From: Parasedimentitalea psychrophila
GTDB taxonomy: Bacteria; Pseudomonadota; Alphaproteobacteria; Rhodobacterales; Rhodobacteraceae
Assembly: GCF_030285785.1 (NCBI RefSeq)
Contig: NZ_CP127247.1
Coordinates: 806,001-870,000, forward strand
DNA length: 64,000 bases
Reading direction: 5' to 3'
The notes beneath the pieces are model-generated. The model ran no database searches. It worked only from the letters and a program-made list of their open reading frames with translations, and was not told the DNA's origin. The position numbers and the translations under genes are program-made. Positions 39,187 to 56,357 of the stretch are shown piece after piece; position 1 is the first letter of the stretch; every line of letters begins with the position of its first letter.

Positions 39187-39397
39187 CATTTGAAGCACAA
39201 CAACCAGCCATGTGATTTAGAGGTGGTCGCCGGAATTCGGACCCGTGGTTAAGGTGGATCACCTTGTGAGAGAGGTGATCCGAAATGATGAAACGAAAGA
39301 TCCATTCGTCCCGCTGCCCGGAAGTCGTTTGCTTGCGAACGATGACAGGGGAAGATCGGATGACGGTCGAGACCGACAGGAACCGAGGCGCTTAACC
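39187..39397 (+). pseudogene. Probable IS orfA remnant carrying a double-hairpin element
   Basis: The sequence before 39285, with a promoter-like GGTGATCCGAA and then ATGATGAAACGAAAGATCC, resembles the beginning of IS3-type orfA genes (MMKRK..HS). The reading is broken straight afterwards by the 41-bp hairpin element at 39311-39351. What follows has no further transposase similarity that I can support, so the host identity is uncertain. Confidence 0.4.
39311..39351 (-). repeat. Double-hairpin element, copy 1
   Basis: 41 bp beginning CCGCTGCC and ending GACAGGGG. Hairpin B has arms TCGTTTGC and GCGAACGA (one G-T pair) around a TT loop; hairpin A (CTGCCCGGAAG) is imperfect. It shares ends and layout with the copies at 44836, 44974, 46319 and 55676. 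Strand is given relative to the 46319 copy. Confidence 0.7.
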
Positions 39398-44835: not shown

Positions 44836-44875
44836 CCGTTGCCCGGCAACACATGCTTGCATGTGCGAGAGGGGG
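44836..44875 (-). repeat. Double-hairpin element, copy 2
   Basis: About 40 bp starting CCGTTGCC and ending GAGAGGGG. Hairpin A: TTGC / GCAA around CCG. Hairpin B: CACATGC / GCATGTG around TT. It interrupts OrfB between QKPNS and KPAKSHK and shifts the frame. Orientation is opposite to the copies at 44974, 46319 and 55676. Confidence 0.85.
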
Positions 44876-44973
44876 CAAACCCGCAAAGAGCCATAAGATT
44901 TATCCCTACTTGCTGCGTGGCCTGCGGGTGGGTCGGCCCAATCAAGTTTGGTGTGCCGACATCACCTATCTAC

Positions 44974-45016
44974 CCCCTCTCGGCAGATTGCGTTGCAATC
45001 GCCTGCCGGGCAATGG
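44974..45016 (+). repeat. Double-hairpin element, copy 3
   Basis: 43 bp starting CCCCTCTC and ending GGCAATGG. Hairpin B has arms GATTGC and GCAATC around GTT, extended by GGC/GCC with one bulged A; hairpin A is TGCC-G-GGCA. It sits just after ITYLP of OrfB, exactly where the core of the transposase is missing. Confidence 0.75.
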
Positions 45017-45193
45017 ACGGTTTCCAAGCAAAACGGATCATTGATAACTGGATCGGGTTCTACAACTCCGAGCGCCCTCACACTGCCCTTGATAAGCGCA
45101 CGCCCAACATCGCATACTTCGACCAAGCGGAGATACGAAAAGCAGCATGACCACAAACCCGATGCATCTTAGCTAAGCCGCGATACTGTCCTA

Positions 45194-45211
45194 AAAAGCA
45201 GGACCACTTCA
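45194..45211 (+). repeat. Probable right end of the IS3 remnant
   Basis: AAAAGCAGGACCACTTCA lies 41 bases after the OrfB stop and recurs exactly at 36144-36161; the position suits a terminal inverted repeat. The partner left end was not found. Confidence 0.55.
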
Positions 45212-45522
45212 AGTCTTGGTCACAACCGTTGGCCGACAGAGAAAACATAACGTCTGAAGTTTTTGCTGAGCGACCAAAATACCACCTACGCTTGCGCAAG
45301 GTTCGATATCATCAGGTGTGTCTATTGGGTAACAGATGGGGTGTTGATTACTTCTACAACCTTGAGGGTCGTATATGTTTTGGCATGGCAAACGTTGAAT
45401 GTGAACCGGGGGCATAAATGCCTTTGGTTTATGATATGACAATGCTTATCCAGCGCTCGTTACTGGAAACCACTAAACCAGAAGCCACGAAGAGGTATTC
45501 ATCAAAGAAATTCTCCTATTAA
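45212..45522. other. Gap between IS3 remnant and lipoprotein gene
   Basis: About 310 bases, more AT-rich than the surroundings. A 62-codon plus-strand frame (45229-45417) has no family I recognise and no ribosome site. I call no gene here. Confidence 0.4.
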
Positions 45523-45789
45523 ATGCAAAGATTGACTGTGAAACCTTTTATTATTATTTCAATAACTGCACTTAGCCTCACGGCTTGTGATGGTATTGAC
45601 TATTCGTCTAGTGATATTGATCATGTACCGCCAATTGATTACTCCAGCACCTGCTTCAACAATTGCGGTTACAATGGCACCAACATGACGGCAGAGAAAT
45701 ATTTTGCATGTAATCATGAGCATTACAACCGTGAAGCGTCAAGCGGTTGTACGCAATCCATGATCGATGCCAATTCACTTTATTGCTGA
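45523..45789 (+). CDS. Small putative lipoprotein
   Basis: An 88-residue protein with a lipoprotein leader (MQRLTVKPFIIISITALSL, lipobox LTAC, Cys22). The mature part is short and Asn/Ser/Tyr-rich with five further Cys (STCFNNCGYNGTN, YFACNHEH, SGCTQS, SLYC), which could form disulfides in the envelope. No family is recognised. The lower GC content than its neighbours suggests acquired DNA. Confidence 0.55.
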   Translation: MQRLTVKPFIIISITALSLTACDGIDYSSSDIDHVPPIDYSSTCFNNCGYNGTNMTAEKYFACNHEHYNREASSGCTQSMIDANSLYC

Positions 45790-45925
45790 TAGGTATTGAG
45801 TAACAAATTTGAATTCTCATGTCATCCCACATAAGCCCCTGTGAGAGTGCCTAGGCTCAGGACCCATTAATCTGCTTGAGGCTGTCTGTTCTGCATGATT
45901 CAAGTCCCCAAATTACGGGGGTTTT

Positions 45926-46721
45926 ATGAGTAATCTTTTCTGGCTGAGCGAAGATCAGATGGCTCGGCTTCGGCCCTATTTTCCGAAGAGTCATGGCGTG
46001 CCACGGGTCGATGATTGTCGAGTGTTAAGTGGTATTATTTTCATCAATCGCAATGGGTTGCGTTGGTGTGATGCGCCCAAGGAGTATGGTCCACACAAGA
46101 CGCTCTACAACCGCTGGAAACGGTGGAGCGACATGGGGGTGTTCGCGCGGATTATGATGGGGCTGGCAGCCGAGGTTCCTGACAACAAGACGATCTCAAT
46201 TGACGCAACTTACCTCAAGGCACATCGCACGGCCTCCAGCCTGCGGGTAAAAAAAGGGGGCGTGGACGTCTGATCGGACGTACCAAGGGCGGTATGAACA
46301 CGAAGTTGCATGCCGTGACCCCTCTCATGGTTTGCAGGCAAACCACTGCCGGGCAGTGGACGCGATTGGGCGGCCGATCCAGTTCTTCCTGACCGCCGGT
46401 CAGGTTAGCGATTACACTGGGGCAAGAGCTCTGGTGAATAGTCTGCCAGCGGCCGACTGGCTATTGGGAGATCGCGGATATGACGCGGATTGGTTCCGAG
46501 AGGCCCTTGTAGATATGGGAATATCGCCCTGCATCCCTGGACGAAAGTCGCGAGACAAAACCATCAAGTACGACAAGCGTCGTTACAAAAGACGTAACCG
46601 GATTGAGATCATGTTTGGTCGCCTGAAAGACTGGCGGCGCGTGGCTACCCGTTATGACCGATGCCCGAAGGTCTTCCTGTCCGCCATCGCTCTCGCAGCA
46701 ACCGTGATCTTCTGGTTATGA
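45926..46721 (+). pseudogene. IS5-family transposase, frameshifted by a hairpin element
   Basis: The N-terminal frame (45926-46273) has LSEDQMARLRPYFPKSHG and NRNGLRWCDAPKEYGP, with DATYLKAHR holding the first DDE Asp. After the A7G5 slippage site the frame shift to KLHAVT is normal for the group. The remainder (DAIGRPIQFFLTAGQ, LLGDRGYDADW, RRNRIEIMFGRLKDWRR) is in a further frame because of the 38-bp net insertion between T and D of HAVT-DA. So this copy cannot make full transposase unless two frameshifts occur. Confidence 0.88.
46319..46359 (+). repeat. Double-hairpin element, copy 4 (in IS5 transposase)
   Basis: 41 bp starting CCCCTCTC and ending GGCAGTGG. Hairpin B arms TGGTTTGC and GCAAACCA around AG; hairpin A CTGCC-G-GGCAG. 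The uninterrupted transposase would read GTGACC-GACGCG across the site, so the net gain is 38 bp. Confidence 0.88.
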
Positions 46722-46734
46722 GTCCTGAGCCTAG

Positions 46735-47212
46735 GACTGAGGACCTCCAGCTCTTTAAGTTCCTGTGTTAATCCCTCAAGAAACCCATCCTCAGAAGATG
46801 AAGCATTCGTTTGGAGCAGAGATTTCGCGCTTGCCTTAGCGTAGTCGAATTGCTCTGAAATTTGGTCGACCCTAGCCCTTATCGCCTCAAGATCTGGTTG
46901 ACCTGCCTGTGTCAAAATAACGGATTCTAGATCTTCGGCATTGACCTCTTTCCACGTGCCGCAACTATCTTGGCCACCAAAAATATCATCCGGCCCCAAT
47001 TCCACGCTAAAATGCGCGCCGGGTGGAGGTACTTCATGGTTGGAATAATAGACATTGGCCTGGTATCCCAACTATGAGCCGGACCAAGCCTTACCTACCT
47101 CAGAGGCATTCTTTCCCAGCGCCTTGAGCTTGGCGTCTTCGCCGGACCCAGTGAAGCCAGATGCTTCGGCGTCCATTTGGGCTGCCAATTCAAACAGTTC
47201 ACACGAGTTCAT
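46735..47212 (-). pseudogene. Hypothetical gene broken by an amber codon and by IS5
   Basis: The minus-strand frame starts at ATG 47212 (GGAG five bases ahead) and encodes 46 residues ending KAWSGS before TAG (47072-47074). The same frame continues straight on with LGYQANVYYSNHEVPPPGAHFSVE until it enters the IS5 right end at 46734. The second part has only a TTG immediately after the stop and no ribosome site of its own. I recall similar hypothetical proteins with Trp at the stop position (SWSGSWLGY), so TGG to TAG is likely. The family's function is unknown to me. Confidence 0.7.
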
Positions 47213-55441: not shown

Positions 55442-55675
55442 TGTCAGAACAGTTCGAACTGGTCTCTGCAAGGACTATATGACTGTCCTTTATGCCGCGC
55501 CAAGTAGGCGCCACTCAGCGAGAGCGGCGGTGCGGTTGAGCTTGCAATTTTCGCGTGAATAAAGGTGACGTTACTGGTTGAAGTGATTGTAAACCGAGGC
55601 GTGTACGGAGACGAACTTCTGCAAACTTCGCATTCGGCGGAAGCGCAGCATGGCTCGCTCTCGTCGTCGAAATGG

Positions 55676-55717
55676 CCCCTTCTCGTGGTTTGCTGGCAAA
55701 CCACTGCTAGGCAGCGG
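55676..55717 (+). repeat. Double-hairpin element, copy 5 (in IS6 transposase)
   Basis: 42 bp starting CCCCTTCTC and ending GGCAGCGG. Hairpin B arms GTGGTTTGC and GCAAACCAC around TG; hairpin A CTGC-TAG-GCAG. In IS6 relatives the site reads NRAENSHQPFRRR, so the net gain is 39 bp, in frame. Confidence 0.88.
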
Positions 55718-56079
55718 ATGAGAATTCTCAGCCCGGTTATTCAACCTACGGTCGGTTTCTTGTTTGTCAGCATTGCCGATGACCTTCATCGCGGCGCCGT
55801 AAGACCGAAGTAGATCGGTCGCGATGACATGTGGTGGGCCAAAGCGCTTCATTGTTTTTCTGAGGAATTTCAGTGCCACTTTGCGGTCACGGCGCTTGGT
55901 GACATGCCTTTCAAGCACCTCGCCCTCGTGATCCACAGCCCGCCAGAGGTAATGAGTTTCACAGTTGATTTTTACGAACACCTCGTCCAAATGCCATTTC
56001 CAATTCGAATAAGCACCAAGTTGCTGCGCCCGTTTTCCTCGAGTCTCCGCTGTGAACAACGGCCCAAAGCGATTCCACC

Positions 56080-56111
56080 AAAATCGCACGGTCTCAAAAT
56101 CGCACAGTCTC
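56080..56111. repeat. 16-bp tandem duplication in IS6 transposase
   Basis: AAAATCGCACGGTCTC is followed at once by AAAATCGCACAGTCTC (15 of 16 identical); the duplication shifts the transposase frame. Confidence 0.85.
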
Positions 56112-56357
56112 ATGGCCGATTTCGATCCCGCGCTCATGCAGAAAATCCTCCACATTTCGGAGCAACAGGGGGAACCGGACGTACAACATCACCGCAAGGC
56201 GGATGATGTCGGGACTGGTCTTGAAATACCGAAATGGGCTGTGTTTTATCATGCCGAGAAGCTAAATCGCCGCCCTGCCCTTCACAACCGAGTTTATTCT
56301 GACAAGACCCGCTGGATTTGTTCCTCAGGGGCTGTTGATAAATCAGCAACCGTTTGA

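Follow-up and report, generated by a model that had tools for sequence, protein, structure and literature searches.

Small palindromes for which no transposase is known have long been puzzling in bacteria, and several described systems offer points of comparison for the one reported here. Systems of the IS200/IS605 and REP types insert next to a short target without duplicating it. Guide tetranucleotides, and cleavage beside the REP hairpin by TnpA-REP, have been described (PMC8266576). The CGTC-tagged REPs, which are chiefly alphaproteobacterial and have no known transposase, consist of one hairpin with a stem of 8-9 bp and a loop of 4-5 nt, a short tail, and a conserved tag; they are mostly intergenic, with some members inside genes, and the 2013 survey of these CGTC palindromes leaves their mode of movement open (PMC3733652). 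Rickettsia palindromic elements are about 150 bp long and lie in frame within metabolic genes (PMC10969869).

The element family that we describe shares features with each of these. Like IS200/IS605 and REP/TnpA-REP, it has hairpins and is inserted without duplication beside a short target, which here is GAYG-like and at the right; unlike them, its own genome is without a Y1 transposase, it has no GTAG and two unlike hairpins, and it lies inside insertion sequences (ISs) and not between genes. With the CGTC-tagged REPs it has in common a mostly alphaproteobacterial distribution, small size, palindromic structure, and the lack of a known transposase, and CGTC fits its CRTC target. Because CGTC falls within this target, the CGTC tag of those REPs may be a target remnant. 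The Rickettsia elements are likewise palindromes within genes, and some of the present copies are also in frame, but here the unit is ~40 bp, mostly frame-shifting, and found in transposase genes. Like MITEs, the family is nonautonomous and has many copies, but it differs from them in making no target duplications and in having ends, CCCTCTC and GGCARYG, that do not complement each other. No description of this element family was found in the open-access literature searched. The kind, a nonautonomous palindrome, is already known; what distinguishes the present family is its habitat, double hairpin, target, and lack of a known enzyme.

Five copies in one window and the anatomy of the element

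The window is a 64,000-nucleotide stretch of DNA from the marine bacterium Parasedimentitalea psychrophila (NZ_CP127247.1, positions 806,001 to 870,000). A covariance model was built from ten aligned copies of the element and then run on the window's genome. The five copies in the window and the sequences that hold them are as follows.

39218..39310, minus strand: 93-bp repeat joined to copy 1, which continues without the element in four other loci (L203-L206) and which we take to be the left end of an IS3-type element (from its translation only, with no family search)
39311..39351, minus strand: element copy 1, reading CCCCTGTC...GGCAGCGG on the minus strand and abutting the 93-bp repeat; model match at C1:845311-845350, 47.4 bits
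44519..45150, plus strand: remnant IS3-family transposase holding copies 2 and 3, with HTH_21 and rve_3 parts (Pfam)
44836..44875, minus strand: element copy 2, inside the IS3-family transposase remnant; model match at L129 1361-1398, 31.8 bits
44974..45016, plus strand: element copy 3, sharing its IS3 with copy 2 and apparently located at a deletion junction; model match at 850976
45880..46760, plus strand: IS5-family element holding copy 4, with orfA at 45926-46273 (DUF4096) and a DDE_Tnp_1 domain in orfB (Pfam)
46319..46359, plus strand: element copy 4, which adds a net 38 nt to orfB of the IS5-family element; model match at 852320
55571..56155, minus strand: IS6-family transposase frame reading through copy 5, with DDE_Tnp_IS240 (Pfam)
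55676..55717, plus strand: element copy 5, antisense and in frame within the IS6-family transposase reading frame; model match at 861678

The original prediction, made from sequence alone, had claimed these five segments as dispersed double-hairpin insertions of one plan, in unrelated IS families and in both orientations. The coordinates and the plan held, all five segments being model matches in their genomic place, and the reading as dispersed insertions is supported. The proposed outer end GGCARYGG held only in part: its last G belongs to the target, and the empty sites described below give CCCTCTC...GGCARYG, with the element's start one C shorter than CCCTCTC where it lies beside a run of C's. 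A loose regular expression (up to 5 mismatches) returned many weak matches in the window besides, which were taken for noise.

The individual copies differ in how much their surroundings reveal. A homologue of the IS3 from the same genome (L006, 76% alike) is without copy 2. The part of the IS3 that follows copy 3 matches only the end of rve_3 (profile positions 41-67 of 67, Pfam), and copy 3 probably occupies a deletion junction of its IS3, a judgment that rests partly on our own reading of the sequence; four sibling IS3 copies (L002-L005) have the same left flank as copy 3 and then a different element. Around copy 5, the IS6 sequence continues in frame on both sides, and the N terminus of the open reading frame looks degraded.

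The usual copy opens with CCCTCTC, followed by a short-looped stem of variable sequence; CTGCCGGGCAG, whose loop has 3 bases, comes next, and YG closes the copy. The end CCCTCTC is constant and the short hairpin, CTGC-CGG-GCAG, is near-invariant, while the longer hairpin varies in sequence with its pairing kept. Across 108 distinct aligned copies, standard pairs fill 86.8% of the pair cells versus 69.4% after shuffling, and the covariation score is 0.346 versus 0.101; neither value was reached by any of 500 shuffles. In the same copies each of the 8 long-helix pairs has changed on both sides, and the short helix is little varied (three pairs change on one side and one on both). The total of 9 pairs with a both-side change was matched by 62 of the 500 shuffles. 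Because it was fitted to the model, this alignment leans toward the structure. Permuting the arms of unfitted sequences within length classes also lowers pairing: the observed pairing was reached by 0 of 1,000 permutations in four of six classes, by 1 in another, and by 50 in the smallest. Folding of single copies was no better than that of shuffled sequences (z = 0.34 for the copy at 46319 and -1.33 for that at 44974). The elements are open in 5.17 of the 6 reading frames on average, versus 4.71 for shuffled sequences, for which the top of 30 shuffles was 4.87. An Rfam search of four loci gave a single match, below the cutoff (E = 0.91).

Copy number, spread, and habitat

At E ≤ 1, the window's genome yields 147 covariance-model matches. 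All lie on contig C1, and 3 of them (E of 0.17 to 0.87) were excluded when regions were chosen. None of the 147 lies on contigs C2-C4, which together make up ~166 kb. The exact 12-base 3' core, TGCCGGGCARYG, occurs 128 times in the genome versus once for the pattern read backwards, and a DNA search of the genome with window positions 44836-45016 gave 43 matches, many of them covering the element alone. Among seven congeners, the numbers of model matches (E ≤ 0.001) were 0, 1, 11, 1, 61, 18, and 96. Relatives had been named in the original prediction as a place to look for the element, and at one genome per genus, 40 of 100 family genomes, the window's own included, had at least one match at E ≤ 1e-5. 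The candidates scored per genome were limited (150 or 65 for the model, 40 for the DNA search), and therefore counts in copy-rich genomes should be read as "at least." An end test was failed by 15 of 194 script matches.

The element also occurs on plasmids. Two forms of the query matched 88 and 18 plasmid records, with some records common to both lists; the records named are mostly from roseobacters, with two from Shinella in the first list and one from Hoeflea in the second. Phage records searched for the element gave no match. The five segments are real members of a large element family spread through Rhodobacterales. No larger element with the same ends was seen among 27 of the 3' cores lying outside model matches, drawn from only part of the 128. 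At least 3 of those 27 cores (at 1925726, 1935679, and 2738342) are complete elements missed by the model, and to the eye most of the remainder resemble coding sequence. At one locus (L161, genomic 3731710-3732552), seven elements lie inside ~850 bp of a single IS-like relic.

The habitat of the element was assessed by translating its flanks. For 99 of 110 contexts in the window's genome, the flank translation resembles another fetched locus at E ≤ 1e-6. The same held for 2 of 17 control loci run against that database, which was assembled from element-bearing regions, IS5 relatives, and the surroundings of 3' cores; 11 of 121 contexts had been set aside by eye as poor or overlapping. Because this database is mostly made up of element-bearing regions, the count shows repeated IS-like DNA and is not proof of each IS. 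On plasmids, 18 of 19 contexts, which we chose from 58 rows, had at least one flank resembling the fetched set (E ≤ 1e-5), and the remaining one lies near TniB and TniQ genes. A partial Pfam search of eight further regions gave IstB in one, DDE_Tnp_1 in one, the end of an adjoining fliP gene in one, and no match in five. The host families identified by Pfam or from the record are IS3, IS5, IS6, IS110, IS21, and IS256; a further host we take to be IS30 from our own reading of translations. In related IS110-type copies, elements sit at matching places at 451777, 491142, and 4139687 of the window's genome and at a locus in another genus (L230), and these positions look like the noncoding end of the copies.

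Insertion junctions, target, and carrier insertion sequences

For 174 distinct contexts, the two flanks were joined and compared with every fetched locus, giving 50 usable junctions, or 41 after de-duplication, some of them at matching places of related IS copies. These 41 empty-site comparisons establish that the element is an insertion and not coding sequence. In three of them the empty site agrees with the flanks at 40 of 40 bases (CCAATC|CATGAG, AAACCAT|GACGAA, and TTTGTC|GATGAT). The 29 cleanest junctions remain when 12 are left out, 11 with the right end shifted by 1-4 bases and 1 with fewer than 32 of 40 matching bases. In these 29, the inserts are 36-41 bp long and lie just 5' of a GAYG-like target (equivalently, 3' of CRTC on the other strand), with G at position +1 and A at +2 (24 junctions each), T or C at +3 (25), and G at +4 (21). 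Target duplication is absent from 28 of the 29, the exception being a 2-base coincidence, and insert length is divisible by three in only 3. At most sites no target is lost, and insertion occurs in either orientation relative to the gene. With targets that end in C's, the C-run of the element is often shorter, which leaves its left end ambiguous by 1-3 bases.

When all 174 contexts are considered, decayed ones included, CRTC stands beside the element in 49 and NRTC in 72. CGTC is present in 12 of these contexts and CATC in 37, and the empty sites assign this tetranucleotide to the target. GAYG/CRTC is too short a target to account alone for the preference for IS DNA.

According to the original prediction, segments present at the same place in all full-length relatives of each transposase would be ordinary coding sequence. 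For the site at 46319, the relatives show the reverse: in a script scan of 80 IS5 relatives from other genomes, fetched by orfA, none carries the element there, and 2 have one at another place within the IS. Identical elements also recur at unrelated places, as 5 of 150 36-base cores each occur at two unrelated sites when keys are anchored at the right (left-anchored keys gave 1). Among 74 pairs of contexts with coincident junctions, 5 hold clearly different stems, all at two IS sites, and the flanks of one such pair are 96% alike. Exchange of the resident element is hinted at by L164 and L177, two IS copies 96% alike whose elements sit at one and the same nucleotide but differ in their stems. 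The site of the second element in the IS5 copies of the window's genome is also filled, by another stem, on the Dinoroseobacter shibae plasmid pDSHI04, on which six places match the element. Either a highly preferred target or exchange of resident elements is a possible cause of different stems at the same site.

Most inserts are frame-shifting, yet their carriers are multicopy, and the element is copied along when its host IS multiplies. All 8 close genomic copies of the window's IS5 (95-100% alike) carry the element at 46319, the next IS5 relatives listed in the genome being only 64-67% alike. The first element alone shifts the frame of orfB; 4 of the 8 copies also hold a second, antisense element, and in these four double copies the frame is reopened to 171-173 residues instead of 50. 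At an IS110 site, 5 occupied copies stand against 1 empty copy at 88% identity, with two more at 87% (partial) and 71%; at an IS30 site, 6 occupied copies stand against 2 empty at 94%, plus a partial one at 85%; and in a further IS, 4 are occupied versus 1 empty at 99%. The window's IS3 is occupied in 5 copies, with empty ones only at 76% and 70%. Where uninterrupted copies exist, supply of transposase in trans is the plain explanation for multiplication of the carriers. For the IS5 carriers, a lost helper, or arrival after insertion, has to be assumed.

The original prediction had found no copy in an intact gene of the window, and beyond the window this statement fails, as in-frame copies occur in open transposase frames of IS5, IS256, IS3, and IS6 type. 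They include an IS256 transposase of Sulfitobacter indolifex (416 amino acids, with Transposase_mut at 396.6 bits across the insert), an IS3 transposase of Pseudosulfitobacter pseudonitzschiae (351 amino acids), and IS5 transposases of Loktanella salsilacus and Leisingera methylohalidivorans, of 323 amino acids each, with the element at the same site; these two IS5 frames are 72% alike (dN = 0.18, dS = 1.36). An IS6-like frame of 218 residues near 504 kb of the window's own genome has, at the same site, an element similar to that of the window's IS6 copy, the two agreeing at 37 of 42 bases. These two IS6 frames are 74% alike, with 24, 15, and 78 changes at codon positions 1, 2, and 3, respectively (dN = 0.12, dS not computable). 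Unusual bases that are shared make common descent of this insertion likely, though not certain. The frames were compared for purifying selection on carriers; because independent insertion at the same site cannot be excluded, we do not claim that the carriers are functional.

Proposed mechanism and rival explanations

Results presented above show a discrete unit, inserted without duplication, in a preferred orientation relative to GAYG, and almost always within IS-like DNA. On balance we lean toward regarding it as a nonautonomous mobile palindromic element of ~36-41 bp that lives in ISs and is moved by an unidentified enzyme making no duplications. The steps of this mechanism are inferred. The element would move as a folded single strand, although there is no direct support for a single-strand step; cutting would take place next to the short target tetranucleotide (CRTC), with the hairpins as recognition marks. 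By analogy, an unidentified transposase that makes no duplications, perhaps IS200/IS605- or REP-like, may handle it in trans, but no such enzyme was found. ISs would provide both habitat and vehicle, being expendable, amplified, and passed between cells.

A bolder reading, which we consider less likely than not, is that these are hyperparasitic ~40-bp hairpins repeatedly recruited to the transposase genes of unrelated ISs by an undiscovered enzyme with CRTC as its target, and that the "tag" ascribed to CGTC palindromes is this very motif. If this were true, the unexplained mobility of CGTC palindromes across the alphaproteobacteria would share the same basis. Parasites nested in transposons would also have a bearing on IS decay and on whether nonautonomous passengers limit ISs.

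Among the rival explanations, the one that survives best, though we consider it unlikely, is that the family belongs with the CGTC-tagged REPs or the Rickettsia palindromic elements, the "tag" really being an insertion target. In its favor, CGTC fits the CRTC target, the CGTC-tagged group likewise has no known transposase and has members inside genes (PMC3733652), in-frame copies exist, and the elements are open in more frames than shuffled sequences. Against it, the rule of an 8-9-bp stem and a 4-5-nt loop is not met: 8 fits beside CGTC were found in 395,604 bp (with some double counting), and 3 of these are present elements read across their hairpin. Moreover, the present element has two hairpins, and its flanking tetranucleotide varies.

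There is little to recommend the view that the copies are REP sequences mobilized by a Y1-type RAYT (REP-associated tyrosine transposase). Such sequences are small, many-copy hairpins that make no duplications, and Y1_Tnp (PF01797) is commoner in element-bearing genomes: of the 12 family genomes in 100 that have it, 9 are among the 40 with the element versus 3 among the 60 without (hand count). However, the GTAG tag is missing, the ends being CCCTCTC and GGCARYG, and Y1_Tnp is absent both from the window's genome with its 147 matches and from genomes G020, G074, and G082, which have 20, 29, and 19 element matches, respectively. One Y1 gene lies near an element (L230). It is the only Y1 match of its genome, where that element has a second copy (L231) without a neighboring Y1.

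It is also improbable that the element is skipped or removed after transcription, by ribosome hopping or splicing, such that interrupted transposases still work. That all 8 close copies of the frame-shifted IS5 carry the element speaks for this idea. Against it, both orientations are found in genes, the uninterrupted siblings of the IS110 (88%) and IS30 (94%) could act in trans, and the second element that reopens the frame in 4 of the 8 IS5 copies would be needless if the first were skipped.

Scars of repair or template switching, as opposed to a mobile element, are all but excluded: the apparent deletion junction at 44974, the 11 of 41 junctions whose right end is off by 1-4 bases, and the overlap of the left C-run with target C's in some junctions would suit scars, but they are contradicted by the covarying stems, the uniformity of the ends, the lengths of 36-41 bp, the recurrence of identical cores at unrelated sites, and the clean empty sites. 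That the segments are ordinary coding sequence of transposases is refuted, despite a few copies that read in frame, by the 80 IS5 relatives empty at the 46319 site and the three empty sites that match in full.

To return to the mobile element that we favor, its target, ends, and polarity are directly readable because there are many near-perfect empty sites, and copy-rich and copy-poor congeners are available for finding the enzyme. Y2_Tnp (IS91-type), present in 7 of 13 chosen genomes and in three open copies in the window's own, has a point in its favor because within the genus it tracks copy number: three copy-rich genomes have it (the window's own, G005, and, as a broken piece, G007), and three with 0 or 1 match do not. 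As a mobilizer it was nevertheless rejected, being missing from the copy-rich genomes G020, G071, and G082. Reverse transcriptase, present in 8 of the 13, was rejected likewise, being absent from the window's genome and from G002, G004, G005, and G007, of which G005 and G007 are copy-rich. No Y1, Y2, or reverse-transcriptase family was common to all copy-rich genomes tested.

A 134-bp composite of the element and the 93 bp adjoining copy 1 was considered as a master copy and rejected, as in relatives the 93 bp runs into an IS3-type reading frame. In two species, one of them a congener, a composite of an IS3-type end and the element lies just after a gene that we read as uvrA (L154 and L215), and in the congener a perfect hairpin replaces the element's long stem, as if the composite had been adopted as a terminator.
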